Shown one piece after another: positions 2,099 to 20,397 of a DNA stretch of 59,727 nt. Numbering within the stretch: the stretch's first letter is position 1; each line of letters begins with the position of its first letter. Below the pieces are notes generated by a model. That model saw nothing but the letters and a program-made list of their open reading frames with translations. It did not search any database and had not been told where the DNA came from. The position numbers and the translations under genes are program-made. Origin of the DNA: Nitrosomonas sp. (GTDB lineage: Bacteria; Pseudomonadota; Gammaproteobacteria; Burkholderiales; Nitrosomonadaceae); NCBI GenBank assembly GCA_024281675.1, contig JAMXAG010000017.1, forward strand, positions 1-59,727. The letters are read 5' to 3'.

Positions 2099-3850
2099 TT
2101 AATTTCCCATCCAAAGGATTGCGGGGTTGTGTTCCAGTTGATCAAAGTATGTTCCCACGATTACGGGGTGATTGAAGTGTAATGTAATTGTTTCGATTAC
2201 TTGGAGAGGAATTGAAGTGTTCATATCGACCGTGATGAGCCCGCCTGAGAATTTCAATTGACGCTCACCAGAGAACGATAAGGTTTCACCGTTTTTTAGG
2301 GTGAAGGTTGCATTGGCTTGGGTTGGATAAGAAGATTTCTTTTTGTGGGGACGAACAACGATTCCCAATGCCAGTAATTGCGAGCCCATAATATTTTCAG
2401 GGATTTGAATGGTAATCGAATTAGCAGGTTCCTTTAAAGAGAGTGAATCAAAAGTAATGGGTGTCTGCACATTTAGTACGGGATTCAATTGCTGGCAATT
2501 TCGCAAGTAATACCAACCCAGTGGATCAATGGGGACGCATAGCGGCGATACATTCGAATCGATCAACGATGACATGTGCTGCCACTGTGAGGAATGGATA
2601 GATGGAAACGGGGGGGATTTGCTAATTTTTGGTCCCCGAATAGCCCAACCAGAGCATATAAACCAAAATACAAACAAGAAAACTGGAAGCGTTATTTTAT
2701 TTCTCTGAAGGAAAGCAACATTGGCGGGAAACAATGCGAGGATTCCACTGAAAGCCAGCGCCATACCAAAAAACATCAAAATGATTGTACGATTAAGAGT
2801 GAAATGTTGAAGGTGAAACAGATCCTGGTTCCACGAAACATTCATTGCAAATACATTGATCATGGATTGGAAAAATATCAATGTTAAGCCGATAAGTGCA
2901 AGAATTCCTGGTGCCTTTCGTCGCCAGAGAATTAGCAGGATCATAAGGCTAAAGAGGACTAGGCCTATATAAATACTCGTAGAAACTGGTAATTTGTGAA
3001 AAAAAGGACCTAATCCAATTTTTCCGATAAATCCTAAAAAGTATTCAATGGTGGCAGTAACTTTTAGCAATAGCGTATTATCAGAAGCCGGAAAGATCGT
3101 TGATTGATTTGATTGACTTATAAAAAGCTGAATAATTTGTAGGCAACCTAATACTGTAGAAACAATCGTGATGTTGCGGAAGCGGCGATTACTCACCATT
3201 GCTGTAATTACCATCGCTGGAAGCGTCGCAAGAATTGCCGGCTTGGAAAGGATCAATAAGGGGATAAACCATGACCACCAGGGGACTTCACGGTTTTTTT
3301 CAACAAAAGCGAGTGCTGTGATAGTGGCGATAAAAAAAGCCGAAAAATACGAGAAATTAATGAATGTTCGTGTTTCAAAATCAGCCACCATGGCAATCGT
3401 GATGGCCGTCAACAAGCGTAACGCATCGTTTTGTATCAGGATACGGAAAGGGCGTAAACAGAACGTACTGACCATGACAGCAGCGAGAACAATGGCCGAA
3501 CCGCTATAGAAATACGGGATAATCGATGCCGGGAGATTTAAAAGGCTGCCTAGCAAAGCAATCATGCGCGGTGGTAGTGGAATATAGCCCGCATCGGTAG
3601 CAAATAAATTTTCGTATAATGAGGGATCGTTTGCTTTAGGGAAGTAATTGGTCCCCATCTCGGCATACATTGCGCCACTCAATAACCATTGATACTGCAG
3701 TGCAACGACATAGACGCAGGAAGAAACAATGCACAACAGAAAAAACAGGATTGGGCGCCGGGGGTGATCATCGTTGACTAGTTGCGTACTTTCATTGTGT
3801 AGCATCCAGTTGCGAGAAAGTTGTAGATACGAAAGGACAGATCTCAGCAT
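2099..3850 (-). CDS. Polytopic membrane protein, possible GT-C-type enzyme
   Basis: No family is recognised with confidence. The 583-residue product has about ten hydrophobic segments between residues 35 and 410, starting with PILFFLLCIVSSCVYVVAL. A roughly 170-residue, beta-rich hydrophilic C-terminus then probably lies in the periplasm. That layout recalls membrane GT-C glycosyltransferases that use lipid-linked sugar donors, and an early acidic loop (EMGTNYFPKANDPSLYENL) fits loosely, but no diagnostic motif is claimed. ATG at 3850 is preferred; a TTG at 3871 would add seven residues. Neither has a good ribosome site, and the gene abuts the aldolase stop, so translation may be coupled. It is the last gene of the eight-gene glycan-like cluster. 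Confidence 0.6.
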   Translation of the reverse strand: MLRSVLSYLQLSRNWMLHNESTQLVNDDHPRRPILFFLLCIVSSCVYVVALQYQWLLSGAMYAEMGTNYFPKANDPSLYENLFATDAGYIPLPPRMIALLGSLLNLPASIIPYFYSGSAIVLAAVMVSTFCLRPFRILIQNDALRLLTAITIAMVADFETRTFINFSYFSAFFIATITALAFVEKNREVPWWSWFIPLLILSKPAILATLPAMVITAMVSNRRFRNITIVSTVLGCLQIIQLFISQSNQSTIFPASDNTLLLKVTATIEYFLGFIGKIGLGPFFHKLPVSTSIYIGLVLFSLMILLILWRRKAPGILALIGLTLIFFQSMINVFAMNVSWNQDLFHLQHFTLNRTIILMFFGMALAFSGILALFPANVAFLQRNKITLPVFLFVFWFICSGWAIRGPKISKSPPFPSIHSSQWQHMSSLIDSNVSPLCVPIDPLGWYYLRNCQQLNPVLNVQTPITFDSLSLKEPANSITIQIPENIMGSQLLALGIVVRPHKKKSSYPTQANATFTLKNGETLSFSGERQLKFSGGLITVDMNTSIPLQVIETITLHFNHPVIVGTYFDQLEHNPAILWMGN

Positions 3851-3871
3851 GGTGTTTTTTAGGTTAAGCAA

Positions 3872-4897
3872 TTAAAGTGTGTCTGCTAAACGCATACGAT
3901 ATTTTTCTGCATCCCAGTCGAGCAAGGCCGCAATTTGATTGTGGTGCAGCGATGCCAGCACAGTATCGGTTTGTTGTCTTGTGAGGACATCATAATAGCA
4001 GCGTAGCTGAGCTTGTTTTGCGATATTGAAGGTACGGGTGACAAAGACACCGTAGTCACGAATAAATATCAACTCAGGTTTTTCATGTGGATTTGCAGTG
4101 AATAGGGTTTCGAGCTGTTCCCAATTCGTATAGGTGTGTGCTTGTGTACCAAGAAATACAACGTGATCGGGGTAAAGCGCCCAGTCGGATGCAAGCCGGT
4201 CAAACAGCGCTGAATGGGTTGCCAATTCGTGCAATGTAGGGTCTTGAATGGGCACATAATCCGGGTGTCTGGAAACGGGAATATGACGCGCATGATCCAG
4301 TGCGGCAACTGGAGTTTGAAGCATGGCAATCAGCGTGTTGAGTGTTGCCACAACGTCCGCAATGCTGGATCCACCTATCACGACACCGTGATTTTTTAAA
4401 AAAACGACACGGGCATCTTGTTTCTGCATGAGTGCATCGTAAACTGCTTGGGCAAGTTCCTGCCCGGGCTTATGATAAGCCACTAAAACACACGATAACG
4501 AATCATTTTGTGCAGCGATCAAAGTTTTCTCGCAATCAGCTCGTACCAGATGGGCCAGTATTTCGATGGCATGCAAATGAATCACAACCGGCTGTGGCAT
4601 CAGCGCATGCAGCAGCGTTTCAATCGAGGGTTTCAATTCATATGTGCCGATCAATTGAGGGGTTACAGAAAAATTGCGTTGTTGGATAGCGTGTTGTAGC
4701 GCCTGCAGATTGACCGGAACGAAAATGTTGCGTTGATCCGCTTCAGCTAACCAGGTTCCTGATGCTTTGATCCATAATGTGCCAGAGTCTTTCCATGACA
4801 CATTGCCACCCGCACCCTGTACCAACAAAGGATTTTTGCCAATACTTGCACAAAACTGAATGACTTGCGCTCGTGTCTGATCGTTATGGTTGTTCAT
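3872..4897 (-). CDS. Class II aldolase/adducin-family protein
   Basis: Members are Zn-dependent aldolases, epimerases or decarboxylases acting on sugar phosphates (fuculose-phosphate aldolase, ribulose-phosphate epimerase). The N-terminal GAGGNVSWKDSGTLWIKASG stretch is the family phosphate/substrate loop. PSIETLLHALMP supplies the general acid/base Glu (about E93), and HLHAIE (H107, H109) with KNHGVVIGG (H170) give the three zinc histidines. The 341-residue length exceeds the usual 210-230; about 120 extra residues at the C-terminus have no assigned role. It starts with an ATGA overlap on the HAD stop, so the two are translationally coupled and probably act on the same phosphorylated sugar. 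The substrate is unknown. Confidence 0.8.
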   Translation of the reverse strand: MNNHNDQTRAQVIQFCASIGKNPLLVQGAGGNVSWKDSGTLWIKASGTWLAEADQRNIFVPVNLQALQHAIQQRNFSVTPQLIGTYELKPSIETLLHALMPQPVVIHLHAIEILAHLVRADCEKTLIAAQNDSLSCVLVAYHKPGQELAQAVYDALMQKQDARVVFLKNHGVVIGGSSIADVVATLNTLIAMLQTPVAALDHARHIPVSRHPDYVPIQDPTLHELATHSALFDRLASDWALYPDHVVFLGTQAHTYTNWEQLETLFTANPHEKPELIFIRDYGVFVTRTFNIAKQAQLRCYYDVLTRQQTDTVLASLHHNQIAALLDWDAEKYRMRLADTL

Positions 4898-5646
4898 GTG
4901 TGTTCCCTTAGCCGTACCAGCAAGCGCCGGAGTTCGCCAAAATGTTTGAATGCGGCATCTGGAGCGCTTTCACCCGTTCCCAATGGTGTGTCTTCATGGA
5001 TCTTCTGTAAAGTGACCGCATTGATTTCTCTACGTGCTTCGCGGATATCGTTGATCGGATTATCGCCAATCATCCAGATACAATCGCCTTGCGGGTGCAT
5101 TTTTTCCAGTGCAATGTGAAAAGGCGCTGCATGGCATTTATCAAATCCGGCTTCCTCGCTGGTGACAATATAATCAAAATAGTGATCCAGTCCAAAATAA
5201 ACGACTTTGCGGAATTGGATTTGTGCGGTGAGGTCAGTGACGATCGTGGTTGGTATTGCCAGCATACGGATATCGTCGAGCAATTCTTTGACTTCATCGA
5301 ATAGTGTGGCGTTGCTCAAAAAAGTGCGCCAATAGGTTTGTTCAAAATCCAGCGCGAGCAGTACTTGTGATCCCAAGCCCATGATTTCCAACATACGTTG
5401 CAGATACAGCAACCGGTTATGTGACGAAGCGGTATATTTCAAGCGTACTTTGATTTGATGGCGCGCTTCTTGGAATGCGCGGTCAAAATCTTCTCCGCTT
5501 AAAGACAAGGTCAGCATGACCTTTTCACGTACTGCCAGTTGTGCGGCTGCATGCGCCGGGGCATAAGGATAGAGGGTGTTATCGGTATCGAACAGGATGG
5601 CGTCGGGTAAGCGCGTAAAACGTTGTGGTTGATACAGGGTTACCAT
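4894..5646 (-). CDS. HAD-superfamily hydrolase
   Basis: A 250-residue haloacid-dehalogenase-fold protein, probably a sugar-phosphate or nucleoside-phosphate phosphatase. Motif I is ILFDTDNTLYPY with nucleophile D20 and acid/base D22. Motif II is IVTD near residue 137, a conserved Lys follows near 170, and motif IV is MIGDNPINDI near 193-201. The helical cap between motifs I and II is of the C1 type. The start at 5646 (MVTLYQPQRF) is chosen because it overlaps the upstream stop by only a few bases; an in-frame ATG at 5763 would need a 120-base overlap. Its cluster contains a nucleotidyltransferase, a kinase-like domain and an aldolase, suggesting removal of a phosphate during synthesis of an unusual building block. 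Confidence 0.82.
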   Translation of the reverse strand: MVTLYQPQRFTRLPDAILFDTDNTLYPYAPAHAAAQLAVREKVMLTLSLSGEDFDRAFQEARHQIKVRLKYTASSHNRLLYLQRMLEIMGLGSQVLLALDFEQTYWRTFLSNATLFDEVKELLDDIRMLAIPTTIVTDLTAQIQFRKVVYFGLDHYFDYIVTSEEAGFDKCHAAPFHIALEKMHPQGDCIWMIGDNPINDIREARREINAVTLQKIHEDTPLGTGESAPDAAFKHFGELRRLLVRLREHT

Positions 5647-8302: not shown

Positions 8303-8997
8303 GCCGAAATATTTTTTTTCAGCTGCAGGCTGAAATCGACGGTGCGGCGAATGAATTTCCATTTCGCTGCCCAATTGACGTTCCAATGCGATACACCATA
8401 CGCCCGCTCACCAAACTTAACGGGGAAGCGATGCACCGCTAACCCTTGCCGCTGTGCTTGATAATAAGCATACAAATCCAACGAAAAATCATGCGGCGGT
8501 GAATGCCAAGTATGGAAAAATTCACGCGAAAACAGGGTTGGTTGCGCATTGATGTCCCACATTGGCTTGGCCATCAAAGCGGTTTCAAAAATACTCATGC
8601 CAACGGTAAATGCCACATCCATGAAAGGGCGGCCGTAGCGTTGTCCTTTGACAAAGCTGTTGTTACCGTAACGATCGAATAATTCCAAGCCACGCAGTGT
8701 ATCTTGCGGATCGGTCTGCATGTCTGCATGGGTCCAGCCCAGAATTTCTCCTTCGGCCGCTTTGAGGCCGGATAGGATGCCAAAACCATATCCTTGGTTA
8801 TTATCTACGCACACACTGCGGCAGCCCGGGTATTGGGGCAGTAAGTTTTGCAATACTTCTGGTGAGCGGTCGGTTGAGCCATTATCAACCAGGATGACTT
8901 CAATATTGGGCTGGGCTTCCAAGAGTTTGCAACGTTCTAGCAATAAAGGAAGGTTGGCGGATTCGTTATAACAAGGAATGATCAGTGAAAATTTCAT
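8299..8997 (-). CDS. Family 2 glycosyltransferase (DPM1/GtrB-like)
   Basis: A 232-residue GT-A enzyme beginning FSLIIPCYNESANLPLLL. VILVDNGSTDRSPEVL and the metal-binding region GWTHADMQTDP (an H-A-D-x-Q variant of the DXD motif) follow. It lacks the C-terminal membrane helices of the longer GtrB proteins, so it is probably a soluble or peripheral transferase that loads a sugar onto polyprenyl phosphate or a related acceptor. It directly follows a GtrA-type flippase, overlapping it by four bases (ATGA). GtrA/GtrB-type pairing is the known mechanism by which an undecaprenyl-phosphate sugar is made inside and flipped outward for a membrane transferase. Confidence 0.88.
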   Translation of the reverse strand: MKFSLIIPCYNESANLPLLLERCKLLEAQPNIEVILVDNGSTDRSPEVLQNLLPQYPGCRSVCVDNNQGYGFGILSGLKAAEGEILGWTHADMQTDPQDTLRGLELFDRYGNNSFVKGQRYGRPFMDVAFTVGMSIFETALMAKPMWDINAQPTLFSREFFHTWHSPPHDFSLDLYAYYQAQRQGLAVHRFPVKFGERAYGVSHWNVNWAAKWKFIRRTVDFSLQLKKNISA

Positions 8998-9437
8998 GGA
9001 AGCTCCGATGACTTGGCAGAGTCGTCAGGATTGACGGGATTAGCCGGTTTTGCTTGTGAATGGAAAACAAAAAACTTCATACCGAGAAAATTCAATGTGG
9101 CCGAAACACCGGTTGCCAACAAAAAAGCCCACTGCAGGCTGGATGGAACATCGATTAACGCCTTCAATGCTAGCGCATTAACCGCAATATTGGCAATGAG
9201 TGTGGACAGATACAGCACGGCAAAGCGCCCCACGCTACCGGCAGCAATGGATTGATGGCCAAATGTCCAGAAGCGGTTAGCAAAGTAGGCAAATATTGTT
9301 CCGGCCAAGAAGCTAACACCTTTGGCAAGGTCGATACTGGTAATGTCCAGCCATAGCAAGCCGCGATAAACGGCGAAGTCGACCAGTACGGTCAATGAAC
9401 CTACAATCAAAAAAATACCGAACTCACGTTTGATCAT
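8994..9437 (-). CDS. GtrA-family membrane protein (putative lipid-linked sugar flippase)
   Basis: The 147-residue protein has four predicted membrane helices, starting FLIVGSLTVLVDFAVYRGLLW, followed by FLAGTIFAYFANRFWTFG, the characteristic GtrA signature with its N-R-x-W-T-F motif. The tail is short and hydrophilic. GtrA proteins are thought to move polyprenyl-phosphate sugars across the inner membrane. ATG at 9437 overlaps the upstream nucleotidyltransferase by 14 bases, and its own stop overlaps the glycosyltransferase start. The likely partners are the adjacent GT2 enzyme, which would make the lipid-sugar, and one of the two large membrane proteins downstream, which would use it. Confidence 0.9.
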   Translation of the reverse strand: MIKREFGIFLIVGSLTVLVDFAVYRGLLWLDITSIDLAKGVSFLAGTIFAYFANRFWTFGHQSIAAGSVGRFAVLYLSTLIANIAVNALALKALIDVPSSLQWAFLLATGVSATLNFLGMKFFVFHSQAKPANPVNPDDSAKSSELP

Positions 9438-11109
9438 GATTTTTTGCAGTCAAGAAATTGGGAACCACGGCTTGGTAACGCCGTTCAAGATTCTTTACTT
9501 GCGCCCCTGGGATCCGAGCGTCCAGCTCTAATCGATAGGGATGTCCGCTCCATTTGTGAAAGCACGATTGCCAGTATTCAAACGTGCGTAAATCATTCGG
9601 CGTGCCCCAGCACAGATAGTGATCGACTTCAAACAACTGGCAGCGTAGCCCAAGTGCTATCGCATCGTTGATACACGAATCTATATAGAATTCGCCGTTA
9701 ATCCGCCCATCACGTGCCATGAGCTTTTCCACGGAATGGCAATAATCCTGTTCGCGGCGGAAAGTAAATGTTCCGAGTATGATGGGATCCGTTGCAGGAT
9801 TCTGTAAAGGTGCTTTAACTGAGATGGCTCGGATCAAGCCACTCGAATCCGCATCAATCCAGCCAAACATGTGTGGATTTCGGATTGCATTGGGATAACC
9901 GCGCACGCCCCACACAATGACATCGATGTTCGTGTCATCAATGAGTTGTTGTAAAAGCTCAGGTCGATAGAGCGCGCCATTATCGCAAGCGCCAATGGTG
10001 ATAGGTTCCGGAATGTTTCCTAACGTATCCCGTAAAGCATCGATACCGATCAACGCCGTGATCGCCTGGCCCTCGGTTACGTGATCGATGGTTTTTATGG
10101 TCGTATGTGGATAAGCATGGCTTAATTCGTTAACAATCGCTTGATATCCAGGCATGTCAGTGCGTAACACAAAAACCTGATGCTGTGCTGGCGGCAAGTC
10201 ATGGACGGCTTGTGTCACCATGGCCTTTCCGGAAACGGGGAGCATTGGTTTGGTTGTGGTATAACCTTCGTTAGCAAAACGTTGTCCCAATCCCGCCATG
10301 GGTATGACCAGGGAACCACGTGGGGAAAGGAAGGTGGGCGGTGGATTGAGCAGGTTTCTAAATGCGTCTGACCACTGATTGTATTCTGCCACGTCTTCCG
10401 GTGTGCCCCATTGCATGAAATGCTGCAAAGGATACACGGCAATCGGCAATTGCTGTGCCAACAAAGGCTTATAGGCCAAGCTGACATAATATTCACCGCC
10501 GACATTCAATTGTTGCGCCATAGTGTGATGAAAAGCTTCACTCATCAAGCGCGCCGATGCGAAATAATACGTGCCACTGGAAGCAAATTCCTCCATGCGG
10601 TTCGCGGTGTAAGGTTGTTTTTCCTGGATGTCCTGTACCCAACCGTCTATTTCTCGCATGTACGCATAGTTGGTACTACCCAGCGAATGCGGATGAAATC
10701 CGCGATAGGCTGGAATTGCGCCTGCGCATTGATTTTGTGCAACAAATTGTTTGAAATGCTGCCAATCCCAATAACACGTGAAATCGCAATAATTTACCAC
10801 CACCGGTAATTGGGGATCGAGTAAGTGTTCCGCTTGGCGTACTGCATTGATCGGCCCGAGCTTATGCGGTGCAATGCCAATAATCCTTCCTGAGGGGCAA
10901 TAATGCTGCAGGATGGCGTGCATGCGATAAACCGGTTCATCGAGGTGCCGCTGATTACAAACAAAAATAAAATCTGTTTCGCCGGGAAATAGATCAATGA
11001 CATGTGCAATGACCGGTTTGCCTTCGATTTCAATCAACGGTTTTGGTACAGTGTATCCGGCGCGGCGAAACCGCTCGCCAAAACCGGACATGGGAATGAT
11101 GATCTGCAA
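9424..11109 (-). CDS. Tandem sugar nucleotidyltransferase (two NTP-transferase domains)
   Basis: Two complete nucleotidyltransferase folds lie in one 561-residue chain. Domain 1 (1-245) opens IIIPMSGFGERFRRAGY with KPLIEIEGKPV. Domain 2 (from about 266) opens LVIPMAGLGQRFANEGY with KPMLPVSGKAM. Each closes with a matching WGTP(E/N)D block, at about 234-239 and near the C-terminus. The copies differ widely, so the duplication is old or the domains have different substrates. The role is presumably activation of sugar phosphates (or an analogue) to NDP-sugars for this cluster. The start appears to be TTG at 11109, because the next ATG would cut into the first beta-strand; no clear ribosome site is visible. 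This is the first gene of the cluster. Confidence 0.82.
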   Translation of the reverse strand: MQIIIPMSGFGERFRRAGYTVPKPLIEIEGKPVIAHVIDLFPGETDFIFVCNQRHLDEPVYRMHAILQHYCPSGRIIGIAPHKLGPINAVRQAEHLLDPQLPVVVNYCDFTCYWDWQHFKQFVAQNQCAGAIPAYRGFHPHSLGSTNYAYMREIDGWVQDIQEKQPYTANRMEEFASSGTYYFASARLMSEAFHHTMAQQLNVGGEYYVSLAYKPLLAQQLPIAVYPLQHFMQWGTPEDVAEYNQWSDAFRNLLNPPPTFLSPRGSLVIPMAGLGQRFANEGYTTTKPMLPVSGKAMVTQAVHDLPPAQHQVFVLRTDMPGYQAIVNELSHAYPHTTIKTIDHVTEGQAITALIGIDALRDTLGNIPEPITIGACDNGALYRPELLQQLIDDTNIDVIVWGVRGYPNAIRNPHMFGWIDADSSGLIRAISVKAPLQNPATDPIILGTFTFRREQDYCHSVEKLMARDGRINGEFYIDSCINDAIALGLRCQLFEVDHYLCWGTPNDLRTFEYWQSCFHKWSGHPYRLELDARIPGAQVKNLERRYQAVVPNFLTAKNHDQT

Positions 11110-11190
11110 GGAATGGCTCGTTTAATGGGGTTTTTCTTGAATGGAATGTTGATAGGACATGTTACAGGATTTATAGGTTGTTTTTAATGG

Positions 11191-11466
11191 CTACTGCGCT
11201 TTGATGAGTGTCCAAATTCCAATCATAATAAATCCAGTACCCGCGATATAGTGCAAGTACCGGGTATTGATCGTATCCGACAAAAAGCTACCGGCTAAAA
11301 CACCGATCCCGGAAGCAGTAATTAACGCTAAAGACGCACCGATAAATACGGTCAGCTTGCTGACTTCCTTGTCGGCGGCAAACAGCATCGTGGCTAATTG
11401 CGTTTTATCACCCAGTTCCGCGAGAAATACGGTGGCAAAAATCGTCAATAAAATTTTGTAATCCAT
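11191..11466 (-). CDS. Half-size GDT1/TMEM165 (UPF0016) family cation transporter
   Basis: A 91-residue, three-helix protein carrying one copy of the family motif E-x-G-D-K-T (AELGDKTQLAT). Full-length relatives have two such repeats; single-repeat bacterial forms are thought to dimerise. The family exports Mn2+ or moves Ca2+/Mn2+. ATG at 11466 (MDYKILLTIF) is preferred over an ATG 20 codons upstream, which would add a non-membrane leader. No yybP-ykoY manganese riboswitch could be recognised in the 5' region. It stands 80 bases beyond the start of the nucleotidyltransferase gene, so it is probably separate from that cluster or just ahead of it in the same transcript. Confidence 0.85.
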   Translation of the reverse strand: MDYKILLTIFATVFLAELGDKTQLATMLFAADKEVSKLTVFIGASLALITASGIGVLAGSFLSDTINTRYLHYIAGTGFIMIGIWTLIKAQ

Positions 11467-11782
11467 ACTTTGATATCCTGTAACTGAAAAAGGGTGAGTG
11501 AAATAGACTATCCCAGCAATCCACAATGGAAATTTTTTAAGGTTGATTACCTCTTATATGGATGAACTTTGCATACCGAATGATATTAAAAAGCGCATTC
11601 ATTGCTCAATACCTTTATAATATGTAGTTATATTCATCTAACAGACATCAGATATCCGCTTCGCTCGGCAACTGTCCAATTTAATCTGGCACATCAACAC
11701 TCAATACTTCTATCAATAATAATAAATAGTAGCCCCCTTTTTTGCTAACAATGATGAGGGGTATCACTGGAAAGCTTGCTTT

Positions 11783-12955
11783 ATGATCCCTATTTTAAAT
11801 AAAAAAGAAATTCGCTCGCATACTTCTTTGCGTGGCTGGGCAGCCTTGATGGTTGTCTTTGTGCATTTTCGATCTTTTTTTCATGCATCAATAGATCCCG
11901 ATGAAATTACATTTTTTTTGTACAAGGGTTATCTTTGGGTTGATTTCTTCTTTATCCTCAGTGGGTTCGTGATGGCTTATGTGTATGATATCGAACATCC
12001 CAAGCGCTATAGCCCGCGTGATGCCATGCACTATTTGATTGCACGGATCGCTCGGATATATCCGTTGCATTTCATGACGTTGTTGGCAACGTTGCTGTTT
12101 TTTATGTTGATGGCGCTGATCAATTGGGGTTTGGGAGGTGAGGATTGCTGCGTGTTCGATGAATCCTTGCGCACGGCCGAATCCCTGGCAGCCAATCTAT
12201 TTTTGATTCACGCCTGGGGAATGTTTGATTGGGTGACTTGGAACCTGCCTTCATGGTCGTTGAGCGCCGAACTGTTTTGTTATCTACTTTTTGCCGCGCT
12301 GCTCACGATCAATGGCGCTAAACGTAGGCTGGTTTTGGTTGCACTGTCATGCATGGCAGTGCTGTTCTATTGTTTATGTATGGCGGCCAGTAGCGATGTG
12401 GATGAGATTTTCCGGTTATCGACCGTGCGCGCTGCGTCGGCTTTCACGATCGGAATTTTGTTGTTCCTGGGGCGTAGAGCGATTTCTGCTTTGTCAGAAA
12501 AAAGCTTGACGGTGATTCAGATGGCCGCTTGTACTGCGTTATTACTTGTGCTGCATTTTGGCTTGACCGATATTTTAGCAATCATCCTGATGGCTCTGAT
12601 CGTTTGGGTGACCTGGGAAGACCGCGGTTACTTATGCCGTTGCTTGGATACGCGTTATCTCCACACGATTGGCGTGTTGTCGTTTTCTATTTATATGTGG
12701 CATTACCTGATCAAGTTTATCGCCAAGCAGGATTGGGAAGGTCTGACAGGATTGCCAGTACAGAGTAGCGTGATGGGATCGGTCCTGCTTGTTGTGTGTA
12801 TGATCGGCTTGCTCATTCCGATTGCTGTTTGGAGTTATCGGTACTTGGAAATGCCTACACGCAAATGGATTAGCCTACGTTTGAATGGCTTGCTGGAAGC
12901 CAAGTACTCGCCAAGCTGGCAATTGGTATGGGTGTCTAGTGAAAGAAAAAGGTAA
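11783..12955 (+). CDS. OafA/YrhL-type acyltransferase (acyltransferase 3 family)
   Basis: A 390-residue integral membrane protein with about ten helices. Near the N-terminus SLRGWAALMVVFVHF matches the family LRG(I/W)AAL.V...H motif containing the catalytic-site His. Further family marks are FFFILSGFVMAYVY, ARIARIYPLH and WSLSAELFCYLLF. Such enzymes O-acetylate sugars in LPS, capsule, peptidoglycan or exopolysaccharide. It is transcribed away from the glycan-like cluster, yet its function fits decorating that product. A GGAAAG site lies about ten bases before the ATG. No terminator is obvious after it. Confidence 0.9.
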   Translation: MIPILNKKEIRSHTSLRGWAALMVVFVHFRSFFHASIDPDEITFFLYKGYLWVDFFFILSGFVMAYVYDIEHPKRYSPRDAMHYLIARIARIYPLHFMTLLATLLFFMLMALINWGLGGEDCCVFDESLRTAESLAANLFLIHAWGMFDWVTWNLPSWSLSAELFCYLLFAALLTINGAKRRLVLVALSCMAVLFYCLCMAASSDVDEIFRLSTVRAASAFTIGILLFLGRRAISALSEKSLTVIQMAACTALLLVLHFGLTDILAIILMALIVWVTWEDRGYLCRCLDTRYLHTIGVLSFSIYMWHYLIKFIAKQDWEGLTGLPVQSSVMGSVLLVVCMIGLLIPIAVWSYRYLEMPTRKWISLRLNGLLEAKYSPSWQLVWVSSERKR

Positions 12956-13029
12956 AGATACTTTCTGTTTTTTTGATCGAAACATTAACACTTGAGGGTT
13001 GTGCTAGGTTAACTTAAATGATAGGCAAA

Positions 13030-13626
13030 TTAAAAAAATTCTGTACACCGAACTGTGTCACTATTGCGTACACAAAATTTTATAGGAGATTCTGCGGTAT
13101 TTGCATCTTTAGGGGAAAATCGTGTTTTTTGTTTCTTTCCTCTACGTTTTGCGTCTTGTGAGTCAGTATGAAATACAACAAATCGTTCTTTTGTAATCTC
13201 TAACCTTATGCCGCAAAATACATTTACTAAATGTAAGGCATAAGACATAAAAGCTTGGGTACTCTTAAATTGTCCTGAAAATCCTGATGGATTATCTGAC
13301 TTGAGCTCAATGTAGAATAACTCGCAACCAGCAGAAACTTTTCTTACTAGTACTGCATCACAAGCGCGATTCTGATCAAATTTACCATCTTGCTTGAATA
13401 AGGGAGACATACAGGCATGCTTGCCAAGTTTACGACCCTCATTGTCAAAATTACGACCTTTATCAGTTGCAAGTAATAACATTCCAGGAGTAAGTTCGGA
13501 TAAACACAATTTTTTTAGCTTTGCTTCATTATTTTCCTCAATGTAGGCGTCCGTTTTCGAATTGCCATCAGAATGTACACAACTCAATATTGCTTTCAAA
13601 GCTTCAATGCCATCAGTTAAGACCAT
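13030..13626 (-). CDS. Small PD-(D/E)XK-nuclease-like protein paired with an ATPase
   Basis: This gene is not recognised as a named family. The 198-residue product contains ACDAVLVRKVSAGCELFYIELKS, in which D90 and E107-x-K109 sit at the ends of two predicted beta-strands, the spacing of the PD-(D/E)XK nuclease core. Downstream, QFKSTQAFMSYAL forms a helix with Gln and Tyr as in many of these nucleases. The C-terminal third is basic (RRGKKQKTRF). It overlaps the upstream ATPase gene by 14 bases, so the two are translationally coupled and probably form a complex. The composition is AT-rich. The nuclease assignment is inference from motif spacing alone; it could instead be a non-catalytic partner. 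Confidence 0.6.
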   Translation of the reverse strand: MVLTDGIEALKAILSCVHSDGNSKTDAYIEENNEAKLKKLCLSELTPGMLLLATDKGRNFDNEGRKLGKHACMSPLFKQDGKFDQNRACDAVLVRKVSAGCELFYIELKSDNPSGFSGQFKSTQAFMSYALHLVNVFCGIRLEITKERFVVFHTDSQDAKRRGKKQKTRFSPKDANTAESPIKFCVRNSDTVRCTEFF

Positions 13627-15022
13627 AATAAATTGCTTCCTGAATATTATTCATATCATCTATTGTTTCATCAAAGCTCTTTGCTTCAATTCCCAACGTA
13701 GAACTTATTTCTGCTTTGATCAATGCTTTTGCTTTAATTTTTCTTCTATATCCAGGACGTTCAATTCTGGCATAGTGTGCCATATAAAGCGATACACATT
13801 TGGGATCCAATTTGTCCTCTGGAAGATAGTCTGCAAATTTCTCACGAATAGATTGAAGCTTTGGCGATTCCTGATTCAGCATAATCAATGTATTGAATTC
13901 TTTGACTATATAATCGCTATGTGTAGTTATAAATATTTTGATTCCATGATTTACAAGAGCAGTAATAAAGCGCGCCAGCCTACGCTGGTTAGCTGGATGC
14001 AGATTTAATTCTGGCTCATCCAGCATAAGCATGTCACCTTTCTTGGCAAAATGCTTTAACCAATACCAAACGATTAATAAAGATCGAACAGAACTTGAAA
14101 CTTCACCCAAACCTAGCTTTAGGCTTGATCCTTTAGGTTGGAAATGAGTTATTCCTTCTTTATTAGTAGCATAGGTTCCACCAACAATTGCTTCAAATCT
14201 CTTCAGTAAATCTGGGAATGATCTATAAAGCTCACCATCTTCAGCATTGCTATTTGGTAATTGGTTAATGAATTGAACATTATGCCTAACGGGTAGGGCA
14301 TATTCCGGGCGACCATAAATTGTTTCGAACAGTTTTTGTGGAGTAATACTATCAGCTCCTTCCTTGTGTGCTTGACCAAGCAAGTCAACTAAATTACTAA
14401 TTGCAAGATTGAGCTGTTTTTTGAATGTGGTTGCACCTGTTCGTTCAGTACTTGCGATAAAAACAGTTGGAATAGTTTCCTCGAGCAGTAATCCAAACAA
14501 ATTCTCTTCGATAAAATTTCCTAGTGAAGTAATTGATGGAGAAATTACTTCCTTGGATTGAGGTGCAGCAAGCTCCAAATCGGAGGAATCTACTAGCTTT
14601 GTCATGGTAACTAGTAAATTGCCATTTGTACTACGCAATTCGCTTTTAAACTCGCGTTGTTTCCATGATGTACCAAGAGGTATATCAACCTTTATTGATA
14701 ATCTTGCAAAGAGTTCGCTTTTAGATGCGAGCATTTCAGGAAATTGTTTTATAAATTTCGCAACAGTATCTTCACAAATATTGCTCCATGAATCAGCAAT
14801 CTTTTTTTGAAGATCAATTTTGATTACACCATGGAGTTTCAGTTCGTTGAATTCAGTCTTTAGATTAATATCGATTAAATGTTTCCAGCTTGTTAGAAGA
14901 CAGTAAATTAAGTAAGTTACATAGGTCTTTCCGGTATTATTCTCACCACAAATTACTGTGAGATCAGCAAGTTCTATTTCACCGAATTCTAATGGACCGA
15001 GATTCTCAAATGTTAATTTCAT
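13613..15022 (-). CDS. ABC/OLD-like AAA family ATPase
   Basis: The 469-residue ATPase has an SMC/RecF-type split head. Walker A is GENNTGKT at 26-33, a signature-like LGLGEVSSSVRSL lies at 303-315, Walker B is MLMLDEPE at 331-338 (D335, E336), and the switch His is in TTHSD at 366-370. The roughly 270 residues between are an insertion without clear heptads. About 95 residues after the His lack the TOPRIM acidic motifs of OLD/GajA proteins, so it is ATPase-only. Such ATPases act as sensors or motors in two-gene defence systems (Septu PtuA, PARIS AriA), here paired with the small nuclease-like gene. A hand count over 14821-14880 gives 30% G+C, against 48% over 9901-9960 in the glycan cluster. 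Confidence 0.85.
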   Translation of the reverse strand: MKLTFENLGPLEFGEIELADLTVICGENNTGKTYVTYLIYCLLTSWKHLIDINLKTEFNELKLHGVIKIDLQKKIADSWSNICEDTVAKFIKQFPEMLASKSELFARLSIKVDIPLGTSWKQREFKSELRSTNGNLLVTMTKLVDSSDLELAAPQSKEVISPSITSLGNFIEENLFGLLLEETIPTVFIASTERTGATTFKKQLNLAISNLVDLLGQAHKEGADSITPQKLFETIYGRPEYALPVRHNVQFINQLPNSNAEDGELYRSFPDLLKRFEAIVGGTYATNKEGITHFQPKGSSLKLGLGEVSSSVRSLLIVWYWLKHFAKKGDMLMLDEPELNLHPANQRRLARFITALVNHGIKIFITTHSDYIVKEFNTLIMLNQESPKLQSIREKFADYLPEDKLDPKCVSLYMAHYARIERPGYRRKIKAKALIKAEISSTLGIEAKSFDETIDDMNNIQEAIYYGLN

Positions 15023-15139
15023 TTTTTCTAATACTCCTCAGTCTAAATGTACTATGTTATTTTAAAAACGAGTTTAATTTATACTCTAATTTTATATTCA
15101 AGCTTCAAATCTAAAACCAATTTTCTTCATCTTTCGAGA

Positions 15140-16261
15140 TTAATCCATATAACCATTCAGATACCACTGATACAGCAGTGCTTCCGTTTCTTTATCGACA
15201 GGCATTGCGGCGGGCAACGTATAGTCGTCGGCCAACTTGGTCAGGGTTGCAAATGCGTGTTTGTTGACAGGATACGCTTCGCCATTGATAAACAGAGTGT
15301 TGCCTGCAGTCAGCATGCGGCTTTTCAAGTTAAGCTTGATGCCACTTTCCTGTAGATGTTTTTGAAACTGGCGCTGTGTCATTGGTTGCTCCGGTGGATC
15401 GAAGAATACGTGTGATTTCGGTTCGGATAGGTAGTGGCCGAGAAAATCTTCCCCCGTCATTTCGTTCCAGCGAATTTTCTTAAGGATGTTGCGTGTTTGT
15501 TGTTGCATGCCGGAACCGATGCGGGAGGGGTGCTGTTGCAATTGCAAATCTGGGTCTGAGTACCAGCCTTCAATTTGTATCGAATCTTGCAAGTAGATGA
15601 GGAATTGTTCAATCAATTCTTGGTGGCTTGGTGCGCGAAAACCTATTGAATAAGTCATGCAGTCGTCTTCCGCGATACCGTTGTGGGCGTATTGCGGCGG
15701 CAGGTAAAGCATATCACCGGCATGAAGGAGCCATTCTTGTTCGACATGAAAGTGTTCTAAGATTCTTAATGGCGCATCGGCGATCAATGTCTGATCCGGT
15801 TGCGCGGAGATTTGCCAACGCCGTGTGCCAAGCCCTTGCAGCAAAAAAACATCGTATGAATCGAAATGTGGGCCGACGCCCCCGCCTTCAGGTGCATAAC
15901 TGACCATCAAATCATCCAAACGCGCATGTGGAATAAAGCGGAATTGTGTTAAAAGATCGCGCGCTGTCGGTAAGAAGTGATTAATTTCTTGTACCAGCAA
16001 AGTCCATTGCTTGCCAGATAACTTCCTGAAATCCTGACTGCGGAATGGGCCATGTCGTAACTGCCATTGCTGGTTCTCATGAATGACGAGCCGGGATTGG
16101 GCTTCGTCATGGCAAGCGAGCTTTTTTAATGCGGCCGGTGAGAGTAGGCCATTGAAGTCGGGCATTGCGTTTCTTACCAGCAAAGGTTTTTTTTGCCAGT
16201 ATTCGCGTAAAAAGCATTCTGGTGTGAGGTTTCCTAAAGAAATTAAAGGGGGAACGTTCAT
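15140..16261 (-). CDS. roxA: Ribosomal protein L16 arginine hydroxylase, JmjC/cupin-fold (RoxA/YcfD)
   Basis: A Fe(II)/2-oxoglutarate oxygenase of 373 residues, the length of E. coli YcfD, which hydroxylates an arginine of 50S protein L16. The iron site is visible as GPHFDSYDVFLLQG (H132, D134) and the distal H193 in PPQYAHNGIAED. The preceding EYWQKKPLLVRNAMP is the typical start of this family. Oxygenase activity makes it sensitive to oxygen and iron. It lies 12 bases beyond an exported methionine sulfoxide reductase on the same strand, possibly a two-gene operon. The start ATG at 16261 is the only sensible one. Confidence 0.9.
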   Translation of the reverse strand: MNVPPLISLGNLTPECFLREYWQKKPLLVRNAMPDFNGLLSPAALKKLACHDEAQSRLVIHENQQWQLRHGPFRSQDFRKLSGKQWTLLVQEINHFLPTARDLLTQFRFIPHARLDDLMVSYAPEGGGVGPHFDSYDVFLLQGLGTRRWQISAQPDQTLIADAPLRILEHFHVEQEWLLHAGDMLYLPPQYAHNGIAEDDCMTYSIGFRAPSHQELIEQFLIYLQDSIQIEGWYSDPDLQLQQHPSRIGSGMQQQTRNILKKIRWNEMTGEDFLGHYLSEPKSHVFFDPPEQPMTQRQFQKHLQESGIKLNLKSRMLTAGNTLFINGEAYPVNKHAFATLTKLADDYTLPAAMPVDKETEALLYQWYLNGYMD

Positions 16262-16272
16262 GTAGGTATTGA

Positions 16273-16803
16273 TTAGCTTCGAAGTAAGGGGAGCGGGTCG
16301 GTTTTAAGCACAAAATTCAAAGCTAATCCGTTGTTGCACCAGCGTTGCTTGGTTGGAAGCGGCCCATCGTTAAAAACGTGGCCCTGATGTCCGTGGCAAC
16401 GGATGCAGTGATATTCAGTGCGTACAATGCCGAATTGATGATCCGGTTGAGTGCCAACATGGCGTGCAATGGGTTGTGTAAAACTCGGCCAACCGCTACC
16501 GCTTTCATATTTGTGCTGGCTTTGAAACAGCGGTAGATAGCATGCGGCACAGATAAACGTGCCTTCGCGGTGTTCTTGATTGAGTTCGCTGCTACTGGGT
16601 TCCTCAGTGTGGTGTTCGAATAACACTTGATAAGCTTCGGGTGAAAGTTGTGTGCGCCAAGCGATGTGGGGTTTATTGAGTGGTTCTAAATGTGAATTGG
16701 CAGATGCCCGCGGCAAAATTAATAACGGAACGACAGGCGCATAAAGAATAATAACCAATGCCTGAAGAATGTTACGCCGTTTTATGTTGTGAGTGCGGAT
16801 CAT
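16273..16803 (-). CDS. msrB: Peptide-methionine (R)-S-oxide reductase MsrB, exported
   Basis: Reduces methionine-R-sulfoxide in proteins. The catalytic Cys is C156 in QRWCNNGLALNF. Zinc-binding pairs are C85/C88 (CAAC) and C133/C136 (CIRC), and the SGSGWPSF loop is conserved except that the resolving Cys of SGCGWPSF is Ser, as in several MsrBs. Residues 1-36 form a signal sequence with a twin-arginine-like KRRN start, a long hydrophobic core and ASA-N cleavage region, so the enzyme probably works in the periplasm. The 176-residue length equals a standard MsrB plus the leader. It is divergent from accA, with 119 bases between. Confidence 0.9.
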   Translation of the reverse strand: MIRTHNIKRRNILQALVIILYAPVVPLLILPRASANSHLEPLNKPHIAWRTQLSPEAYQVLFEHHTEEPSSSELNQEHREGTFICAACYLPLFQSQHKYESGSGWPSFTQPIARHVGTQPDHQFGIVRTEYHCIRCHGHQGHVFNDGPLPTKQRWCNNGLALNFVLKTDPLPLLRS

Positions 16804-16922
16804 TTGCTGAGTGGTATCAATAAAACAGCTAATTTTGTATGCCGTTGGGTCAATTGTGTCGCATGCCGATTTACCTATAAATCCTGTATCATTTAAGGTT
16901 TTAAGATTATATCTCAGCCTAC

Positions 16923-17882
16923 ATGAAAATTACTTTCCTGGAGTTTGAACAGAATATCGCAGAATTCGAATCCAAAATTGAGGAATTGCGCTTTGCACAA
17001 GATGATTCTGCGTTGGATATTTCGTCTGAAATTGAGCGGTTGCAAGCAAAAAGCCAATCATTGACGAAAAGCATGTATGCCAAGTTGACACCTTGGCAAA
17101 TATCGCAAGTGGCTCGCCATCCACAGCGTCCTTATACGTTGGATTATATCCATCATTTAATCACTGATTTTGAAGAGCTGCATGGTGATCGTAATTTTGG
17201 CGATGACCACGCGATTGTCGGAGGTTTAGGGCGCTTCAATGGGCAGCCGGTGATGGTGATTGGCCATCAAAAGGGGCGAGACACCAAGGAAAAAATCTAT
17301 CGTAATTTTGGCATGCCCAAACCGGAAGGTTATCGCAAAGCACTGCGCTTGATGCGTTTAGCGGAGAAATTTTCACTGCCGCTGATTACTTTTATTGATA
17401 CGCCTGGTGCTTATCCGGGTATCGATGCTGAGGAAAGAGGACAATCAGAAGCGATTGGCAGAAATCTATACGTACTCGCTGAACTACGAATACCGGTTAT
17501 TTGTGTCATTATTGGCGAAGGGGGTTCCGGAGGTGCGTTAGCGGTTGCGGTAGGCGATGTTGTGCATATGTTGCAATATGCAACGTATTCCGTCATTTCA
17601 CCCGAGGGTTGTGCATCAATTTTGTGGAAAAGTGCGGATAAAGCCCCAGAGGCAGCAGAAATCATGGGGATTACTGCCGACCGCCTCAAGGCTTTGAGTT
17701 TAATTGATAGCATTATTCCTGAACCGATTGGCGGCGCCCACCGCGATTACACGGTCATTATGCATTCCGTGAGTACTGTATTGCAAGAATCATTGCGAAA
17801 ACTACAAGATCTTTCTACCGATACGCTGCTGGAAAAACGCCATGAACGATTGATGGCTTATGGATCGTTTAAAGAAACCTGA
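16923..17882 (+). CDS. accA: Acetyl-CoA carboxylase carboxyltransferase subunit alpha
   Basis: The alpha subunit of the carboxyltransferase that moves CO2 from carboxybiotin to acetyl-CoA, making malonyl-CoA for fatty acid synthesis with AccB, AccC and AccD. At 319 residues it matches the E. coli protein exactly in length. Recognisable stretches are [36 protein letters not shown] and [10 protein letters not shown], the crotonase-fold CoA-binding and oxyanion elements. It overlaps tilS by 23 bases, the accA-tilS arrangement common in betaproteobacteria. Confidence 0.98.
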
Positions 17883-19254
17883 GCCGGATCATCCGCTGTT
17901 TGCGCTGTCTGCTCAGGTTGAGCATGTATTGCGTACGCATGTAAAACAGGGCGATCATTTATGCATTGCGTTGAGCGGTGGTGTTGATTCGATCGTGTTG
18001 CTCGACGTGTTGGCGATATTCTCCCAACAAATGCAATTTACCTTATCGGCGGTGCATATCAATCACGGCATCAGTAGCAATGCAACGACTTGGTCTCAAT
18101 TCTGTTGTAAGCGTTCCTACGATTACGGTGTTTCCATTTGGGTGGCTTATTTGCATATCCATAAAGTACGCGGTGTGAGCCTGGAAGCATCTGCACGCGA
18201 GCAGCGTTATCGTATTTTCAGTGAGGTCGCAGCGGATTATGTGGTGCTGGCACATCACTTGGATGATCAAGCCGAAACTTTGTTATTGCAACTACTACGC
18301 GGTGCGGGAATCAGGGGGTTAAGCGGTATGCCAGCCATTCGGCAGCAACAGCAGGAACATCAAGCTAAGCTGTTAAGACCATTATTGAACGTATCACGAC
18401 ATCAAATAGAGCGCTATGCGCAATGCAACAATTTAACTTGGATTGTTGATGAAAGTAATGATGATACGGCTTATGACCGAAATTTCTTGCGCCACGAAAT
18501 ATTACCAGTATTAAAAAAACGCTACATCAATTATGCCAAGACCTTGACAAGGACGAGTCGCCATCTTTCCGAAGCTTCCGTATTATTGGATGAATTGGCT
18601 GAAATAGACAGTGAGCGGTGTACGGTTTCCGGGCGGCTTGATTTAGGTAGCTTGCACCAATTAGGGACGCCGCGTGTGAAAAATCTTTTACGGTATACCT
18701 TAGTGCGTCAAGGGATACAGTTACCCAACACTGGGAAAATGGAAAATTTAACGCAGCAATTGCTGTTGATGCGTGACGATGGCCAGCTTAGAGTTGATTT
18801 GGCTGATTACGAAATTCGCTGTTTTAAAGGGGCTGTACATATTTTGCACAAAATTGAATCAATGCCAACTCACGAGCGACACCTCGTTAGTCCTGACAGT
18901 TTGGTTTGGAATGACGAAATTGGACAAGAAATGCAATATATGCATGGGAAAATTGAATTTTCCTGGTCTGGGAACCAGGGTATCTGCCGTGAAAAAATAG
19001 CGAGTCGATTGTTGGCGATCCGTTTGCGTGTGGGTGGGGAAAGTTTTAAACCGGCGTGTAATCGTCCGCGCCGCAGCCTGAAAAATTTATTACAAGAAGC
19101 TTCTATGCCCCCATGGCAGCGGAAATTATTACCTTTGTTATTTTGTGAGGATCGGTTGATTTGGGTGCCTGGCATCGGTATCGATTGTGACTTTCAAGTA
19201 AAATCCGGGGAAATGGGGATTTTGCCAGTTTGGCATGCGATAAAAAATAATTAA
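17860..19254 (+). CDS. tilS: tRNA(Ile)-lysidine synthase TilS
   Basis: Converts the wobble C34 of the CAU-anticodon tRNA-Ile to lysidine with ATP and lysine, so that AUA is read as isoleucine. The N-type ATP-pyrophosphatase P-loop is LSGGVDS (about 38-44). [17 protein letters not shown] and GIRGLSGMP are signature blocks, and [18 protein letters not shown] is the tRNA-recognition stretch. The 464-residue length includes the C-terminal TilS domains. Its ATG lies inside accA, 23 bases before the accA stop. In related genomes lysC usually follows; here rmlB does. Confidence 0.96.
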
Positions 19255-19338
19255 GCCTGGAAAATACGCAAGCTTCTAGGTAAAAGAGTGCTATTTAACG
19301 AGATTTGAGCGTACTAAAGCATAAATAAAGGGACTTGA

Positions 19339-20397
19339 ATGATTCTGGTGACGGGCGGGGCGGGATTTATCGGTAGTAATTTTGTTTTGGATTGGTTGCG
19401 GCAGGGTGATGAGGGTGTTGTCAATGTTGATAAATTGACGTATGCCGGTAATTTGCAAAATTTATCAAGCATTAAAAACAATGCTCGGCATATTTTTTTT
19501 CAAGGTGATATTGGTAATACCGAACTAATTACGCGACTTCTGAAACAGTATCAACCGCGTGCTATCGTGAATCTGGCTGCGGAGAGTCATGTCGACCGAT
19601 CGATTCATGGTCCGGAAGATTTTATTCAAACAAATATTTTGGGTACGTTCCATTTATTGGAAGCCGTTCGTGCTTACTGGACACAATTGGATCATGCGGC
19701 TCAATCTGGTTTCCGTTTTTTGCATGTATCTACCGATGAGGTGTACGGATCACTAGCGCCGCATGCGCCCGCATTCACTGAAACACATGGTTATCAACCT
19801 AACAGTCCCTATTCGGCGAGTAAAGCTTCAAGTGATCATTTGGTTCGTGCCTATCATCATACGTACGGGTTGCCCGTACTGACCACGAACTGCTCGAATA
19901 ACTACGGGCCTTATCAGTTCCCTGAAAAATTAATTCCTTTGATTATTTGTAATGCATTGGCAGGAAAGAGTTTGCCTGTTTATGGCGATGGCCTACAGAT
20001 TCGGGATTGGCTCTTTGTGACGGATCATTGCACGGCGATTCGCCGGGTTTTGGAGATGGGAGTGCCTGGGGATACTTATAATATTGGCGGATGGAATGAA
20101 AAAGCCAATATTGAGATTGTCCAAACGATTTGTGATCTTTTGACAGAAATCTATCCCGATAGGCAGTTTCGACAGTTGATTACATATGTTACCGATCGCC
20201 CTGGGCACGACCGACGCTATGCCATTGATGCTACAAAAATCAAACGTGAATTGGGTTGGCGGCCAGCAGAAACTTTTGCAACCGGTATCCGTAAAACCAT
20301 CCATTGGTACCTGGACAATCAGCAGTGGACGGCAGATGTTCAAACAGGCGCTTATCGCCAGTGGATTGAAAAAAACTATCAGCAACGTACATCATGA
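19339..20397 (+). CDS. rmlB: dTDP-glucose 4,6-dehydratase
   Basis: Second enzyme of dTDP-L-rhamnose synthesis: NAD-dependent conversion of dTDP-glucose to dTDP-4-keto-6-deoxyglucose. It is a 352-residue extended SDR. The NAD motif is [12 protein letters not shown] at the N-terminus. STDEVYGSL supplies the catalytic Thr-Asp-Glu and [12 protein letters not shown] the YxxxK pair. The ATG is preceded by AAAGGGAC. It overlaps rmlD by four bases (ATGA). rmlA and rmlC, needed for complete dTDP-rhamnose, are not adjacent. Confidence 0.97.

Follow-up and report, generated by a model that had tools for sequence, protein, structure and literature searches.

A predicted PD-T4-4-type ATPase and nuclease-like gene pair inserted between an acyltransferase gene and roxA in Nitrosomonas sp.

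Introduction

Vassallo et al. 2022 (PMC9519451) identified the anti-phage system PD-T4-4 in E. coli, where it sits together with PD-T7-2 in an ICE-like element; every system described in that study reduced plating of its selecting phage (PMC9519451). In the table of a 2023 review PD-T4-4 is listed under PF13175 (ATPase) and PF11645 (PD-(D/E)XK nuclease) (PMC10952713). A 2025 paper on WonAB, which pairs an ATPase with a nuclease and is carried by the WASA-1 prophage of V. cholerae, groups PD-T4-4 beside WonAB and models the B protein of PD-T4-4 as a PD-(D/E)xK protein (PMC12137116). According to the same source, WonA is a predicted ATPase dimer, WonB is bound on the surface of the dimerised C-terminal extensions, and defence needs both proteins (PMC12137116). 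Among the listed matches in the literature on PD-T4 and on defence systems, Nitrosomonas is not mentioned.

The stretch of DNA analysed here (the window) comprises 59,727 nucleotides of contig JAMXAG010000017.1 (GenBank assembly GCA_024281675.1) from Nitrosomonas sp., family Nitrosomonadaceae. It contains a pair of overlapping genes at 13030-15022, which an earlier sequence-only reading had put forward as a candidate new defence system. The pair is compared below with PD-T4-4, WonAB and related systems, and its setting and distribution are described.

Classification and features of the gene pair

Gene A (13613-15022, minus strand, 469 aa; reading frame, PADLOC, Pfam and dN/dS) encodes an OLD/ABC ATPase of the PD-T4-4_A type, and gene B (13030-13626, minus strand, 198 aa; reading frame, PADLOC and residue conservation) a small protein of the PD-T4-4_B type. 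The genes are adjacent on the same strand, A first and then B, and by their frame coordinates the end of A overlaps the start of B by 14 bases (13613-13626, minus strand); the coordinates, strand, lengths and overlap of the two-gene pair had been given exactly in the sequence-only reading. The same 14-base overlap occurs in L009 (frames 3605-5014 and 5001-5597), which lies on the contig of genome G119 and was the single locus returned by one scan of genome contigs. A and B are presumably coupled in translation across this overlap. Both frames look to be under protein-coding constraint, with dN/dS values (NG86, against homologues in two other genomes) of 0.066-0.101 for gene A and 0.118-0.340 for gene B.

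The G+C content of the pair is 36.0%, compared with 42.4% for the window. At 13030-15029 it is 35.9%, and when a 2-kb frame is slid along the window clear of the insert, none of its 536 positions is equally low; the contrast is moderate, because stretches near 47-49 kb reach 37.0%. The earlier figure of 30% described one 60-base line only.

Both proteins match PADLOC models of PD-T4-4 at nearly full length. Protein A matches PD-T4-4_A (PDLC04033) with an E-value of 1e-167 (residues 1-468, profile positions 1-458 of 460), and protein B matches PD-T4-4_B (PDLC04034) with an E-value of 3e-39 (residues 1-196, profile positions 1-187 of 190). Membership in PD-T4-4 is thereby set by PADLOC profiles, not by alignment with the E. 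coli PD-T4-4 proteins. The models of PDC-M47, a candidate known here by its PADLOC label only, also match (PDC-M47A to A, E 1.2e-136; PDC-M47B to B, E 1.9e-8); both score below PD-T4-4, and the boundary between the two labels is soft because PDC-M47A is also strong for A. The PD-T4-4_B profile further matches all 23 B rows of the larger B alignment (A2), a result that is independent only for the six plasmid rows, which were reached through A alone and likewise match, because the other 17 came via B, via that profile or from the window itself.

The proposal of a new defence system does not survive these matches: a check against named systems in PADLOC returned the already named PD-T4-4 for both genes. 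A new, unnamed system would be in keeping with the lack of a Pfam or NCBIfam family for B and with the literature passages considered here, which give no worked-out mechanism for PD-T4-4; given the nearly full-length matches of both proteins, it is judged very improbable. The pair is very probably of the known PD-T4-4 type, an ATPase-gated nuclease.

Regarding the layout, the pair shares with PD-T4-4 the order of ATPase gene followed by small-protein gene and an ATPase of the AAA_15/PF13175 kind. The present copy differs from the E. coli system, which is in an ICE-like element, in being a chromosomal insertion in a member of the Nitrosomonadaceae and in having no mobility gene of its own. The ATPase-plus-effector layout proposed earlier agrees with what was found, an OLD-type ATPase coupled to a protein that bears a PD-(D/E)XK-like motif.

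Protein A, the ATPase

Protein A matches the Pfam families AAA_15 (E 6e-26, residues 2-373) and AAA_21 (E 3.5e-16), and a weak resemblance to SMC/RecF-type and UvrA ATPases was seen. No TOPRIM family was found in A by the Pfam search at E-values up to 1, and the approximately 95 C-terminal residues past the end of the AAA_15 match (residue 373) gave no Pfam match. The ATPase motifs are intact: a Walker A motif at G26-T33 (GENNTGKT from 26, with the lysine K32), the motif E193-R194-T195-G196 (STERTGA from 191), a signature-like motif at L303-S311 (LGLGEVSSS from 303), a Walker B motif with D335-E336 (LMLDEPELNLHP from 332) and an H-loop motif with H368 (TTHSDY from 366). The OLD-type motifs, the AAA_15 and AAA_21 matches and the lack of a TOPRIM match at E-values up to 1 bear out the description of A as an ABC/OLD-like ATPase without TOPRIM domain.

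WonAB is alike in combining an OLD-type ABC ATPase, with the same kinds of ATPase motif, with a small PD-(D/E)xK protein. The residues that WonA needs are K34, R182, E300 and H333 (PMC12137116). When paired by motif and spacing, K32, E336 and H368 of A would correspond to K34, E300 and H333 of WonA; R194 of A perhaps corresponds to R182, which is a guess from spacing.

Septu, Gabija and PARIS are alike in coupling an OLD-like ATPase with a nuclease effector. The PADLOC models of PtuA, GajA and AriA are far weaker on A than PD-T4-4_A, the best of them, AriA, reaching 2.4e-29. Septu was rejected on the grounds that B has no match to the HNH nuclease (PtuB) in Pfam at E-values up to 1 and that all five PADLOC matches of B are to PD-T4-4_B or PDC-M47B models. 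Gabija was rejected because Pfam returns neither a TOPRIM nor a UvrD-like family for either protein, and PARIS because B has no match to an AriB-type TOPRIM protein in Pfam or PADLOC; A likewise has no TOPRIM match. The earlier statement that the effector is unlike the HNH of Septu and the TOPRIM of Gabija and PARIS is in line with these Pfam and PADLOC results.

Protein B, the putative nuclease

Residues 90, 107 and 109 of B are D, E and K, in an arrangement resembling the PD-(D/E)XK motif (D90, E107-x-K109). In alignment A2 (23 rows, including the window and close pairs such as L078/L082, L005/L008 and L015/L016), D90 and K109 are identical in all 23 sequences, whereas position 107 is occupied by E in 18 rows and by D in the other 5. 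Two further residues that were absent from the sequence-only reading, E30 and D55, are also invariant in A2 (23 of 23); the E30 column is alignment-dependent, because it is constant in A2 and kept in 16 of 17 sequences in the smaller alignment A1. C89, S110 and Y129 are each conserved in 21 of the 23. Both alignments exclude L004 (a broken copy, genome G011) and L006 (a decayed copy, genome G052); L004 was used in the alignment for the survey of A/B pairing, and L001, L002, L010 and L022 are duplicates of other rows.

No Pfam or NCBIfam family was found for B at E-values up to 1. Across the 23 members of the B alignment, searches of Pfam and NCBIfam gave single weak matches only, the best nuclease-like one being HSDR_N_2 in one member (E 0.068). 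A profile of B compared with solved structures gave four matches, of which none was credible and none was to a solved nuclease. The AF2 model of B alone, computed without an alignment, had a pLDDT of 38.9, which is too low to use; it places strands at 89-97 and 100-108 and a helix at 123-138, which is the expected order and carries little weight. B is therefore described here as a putative PD-(D/E)XK-type enzyme, on the basis of motif conservation and of published predictions for PD-T4-4_B. Of the earlier claim about the partner, the residues D90 and E107-x-K109 are present and D90 and K109 are constant throughout the alignment; the nuclease fold is putative, given the low pLDDT of the model.

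Insertion site and shared block

The pair lies in a segment of 2184 bp between the stop of an acyltransferase gene and the stop of a roxA-like gene (12956-15139, from genome alignment). The left neighbour is the acyltransferase (Acyl_transf_3 by Pfam, 11783-12955, plus strand), and the right neighbour is the roxA-like protein (JmjC_2 and ROXA-like_wH by Pfam, 15140-16261, minus strand); both are host context. In two related genomes, G066 and G062, the gap between the same two genes is 25 bp. Identity of the flanks to the window is 94.3% and 92.6% in G066, and in G062 it is 89.2% on one flank, the other flank aligning in two pieces with 82.4% and 85.2%. The pair is thus a true insertion between the acyltransferase gene and roxA by virtue of two empty sites, as had been stated from the window alone. 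Other frames of at least 80 aa in the insert are one opposite to A and B and one running into roxA; the insert is without an integrase or transposase of its own, because these two are the only extra frames of that length.

A block of approximately 2.09 kb (13028-15116) is shared with two other genomes, with identities of 92.6% in G119 (13029-15116) and 84.6% in G089 (13028-15113). On the left, identity in all three genomes begins no more than a few bases from the stop codon of B, and on the right it fades approximately 95 bp before the start of A. A scan for consensus promoters found seven sites, compared with 8.7 in shuffles, and none of them was upstream of A or at 15023-15139; a promoter belonging to the shared block itself is therefore no more than a guess.

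In G089, nothing aligns outside the block. In G119, the block adjoins a homologue of the same acyltransferase, the DNA of which is only 77.4% identical; roxA is not beside the block, and no further piece of window positions 9001-19000 aligns to that 12-kb stretch. The flanks of the block in G119 hold a type I methyltransferase-like fragment on one side and a fragment matching EcoEI_R_C on the other, an arrangement that would fit arrival of the pair within a former type I restriction-modification operon. In the corresponding locus L070 (2049-5299), the pair is seen between fragments resembling a type I methyltransferase and the C-terminal part of a restriction subunit.

The acyltransferase loci of relatives were inspected with 1.5-kb flanks for the best 14 (L054-L067) of 37 genomes with an acyltransferase match, 85 genomes having been searched, the own genome included. 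roxA is adjacent in two of the 14, and an HsdR-like gene takes that place in one (G023). There is a weak hint in these observations that the 3' side of the acyltransferase gene is a repeated landing place.

Regarding the wider surroundings in the window, nine neighbouring proteins (8994-20397) were tested and are of housekeeping type; they do not form a defence island. One protein in this region (9424-11109, 561 aa) is of nucleotidyltransferase type, and by eye its halves resemble tandem NTP-transferase domains, of which Pfam calls the first only. Elsewhere, the pair is found near other defence genes. In G043 (L074, 5209-8931) it is directly followed by a GmrSD-type gene (HEC-06/Orf5 in PADLOC), and in G073 (L072, 1200-8744) it belongs to a compact defence cluster that runs from an SNF2/DrmD-like helicase and a Bro-N protein (match to PDC-S13) through the pair to a second OLD/AriA-like ATPase, of 573 aa. 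For the surroundings in G068 (L073) and G011 (L075), the analysis covered a listing of the frames.

Distribution

Of the 125 genomes searched within the family, 8 (the own genome included) have a match to B at E-values up to 0.001, and the match reaches at least 84% identity in only three. At the same threshold they were found in 3 of 369 genomes drawn from the class and in 9 of 398 drawn from the phylum (own genome counted in each), in one plasmid record and in none of 14 control genomes. A search of 61 relatives with PD-T4-4_A at E-values up to 1e-30 returned the own genome only. Among viral contigs, eight scans (A, the A-homologue sets A4 and A5, four B homologues, and B) confirmed no relative, the scans being sensitive to close relatives only, and a tblastn search of B against phages gave no match at E-values up to 1e-3.

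An A-type frame adjoins B at 18 of the 19 distinct places found via B, one broken copy (G011) being counted among the 18. At the 19th place, in G052, A and B both look decayed, and a DEPEL-type stretch is visible upstream in the DNA. The broken and decayed copies are located at L075 6045-7464 (G011) and L006 1000-1900 (G052). Conversely, A matches 29 plasmid records, of which seven regions were opened; a B-type gene is beside A in six of them, and in the seventh, from Enterococcus, a gene for an IS256 transposase takes its place. On a Serratia plasmid (L021, 2716-8768), a shortened pair is flanked by inverted copies, two in number, of one gene set that includes a recombinase. The plasmids L077 (E. 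coli) and L078 (Klebsiella) are 4.8 and 4.3 kb in size, and the pair makes up some 40-50% of them; the remaining annotation comprises Rop and helix-turn-helix proteins only, plus two hypothetical proteins in L077.

The weak similarity of A to SMC/RecF-type and UvrA ATPases might point to a housekeeping or DNA-repair pair. This reading is practically negligible and was rejected on the empty sites in two relatives and on the patchy occurrence (8 of 125 family genomes, none of the 14 controls); the low G+C content of the pair and the carriage of its relatives on plasmids also count against it. Occupation of a single site throughout the genus, which would favour this reading, is not seen in the family search or in the genome alignment. 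By its sequence, the pair looks like a horizontally acquired anti-phage system, an additional member of PD-T4-4 in another host with predicted activity.

Proposed mechanism

A would belong to the OLD clade of ABC ATPases, would most likely form a dimer around ATP and would serve as sensor and switch; B would be a small PD-(D/E)XK-type nuclease under the control of A, probably held on the C-terminal extension of A. A would read a sign of phage infection and B would be switched on; active B would then cut nucleic acid, and the infected cell would be stopped before phage are made. The dimer, the complex, the abortive outcome and the shut-off of translation are inferred here from the published work on WonAB.

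WonAB acts by abortive infection after phage DNA replication begins (PMC12137116). Phage DNA is still replicated, with a 2.7-fold defect; translation stops, the genomic DNA remains intact, and the authors suggest rRNA or tRNA as the target (PMC12137116). By this analogy, an abortive outcome through RNA is rated a little better than even for the present pair.

PD-(D/E)XK enzymes are mostly DNases. A member of the same family whose B acts as a DNase straight on the phage DNA and destroys it, with survival of the infected cells, would share the PD-T4-4 assignment with the explanation given above and differ from it in target and outcome. Against such a DNase stand the WonAB findings just described and the insert itself, which has no methylase of its own to mark self DNA because it holds no other gene; the DNase alternative is considered possible, with a likelihood clearly below even.

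A pair of overlapping genes of which the second is nuclease-like also calls to mind a toxin-antitoxin pair, with B as a toxin neutralised by A, and over-production of WonB is indeed toxic (PMC12137116). That toxicity requires WonA and its ATPase, and simple sequestration is taken as ruled out by the authors (PMC12137116). In the present pair the ATPase gene comes first and its motifs are intact. The toxin-antitoxin reading was rejected on the WonAB data and is regarded as quite improbable.

The preferred reading thus remains that of an ATPase-gated nuclease of the PD-T4-4 type. A more extended proposal would combine a self-contained cassette of 2.09 kb, without integrase or transposase and with near-constant ends, that enters different intergenic places of Nitrosomonadaceae, with B as an ATPase-gated PD-(D/E)XK enzyme (constant E30, D55, D90 and K109) that cuts translation RNA, not DNA; in this combined form it is thought unlikely to hold.

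Significance

The claim of a new system at this locus is settled, since by profile the pair is PD-T4-4. The locus is well suited to comparative work: the insertion can be set against two empty sites, and three well-matched copies are available in different settings. The constant residues of B (E30 and D55 besides D90 and K109) provide a guide for mutants in the PD-T4-4 family.
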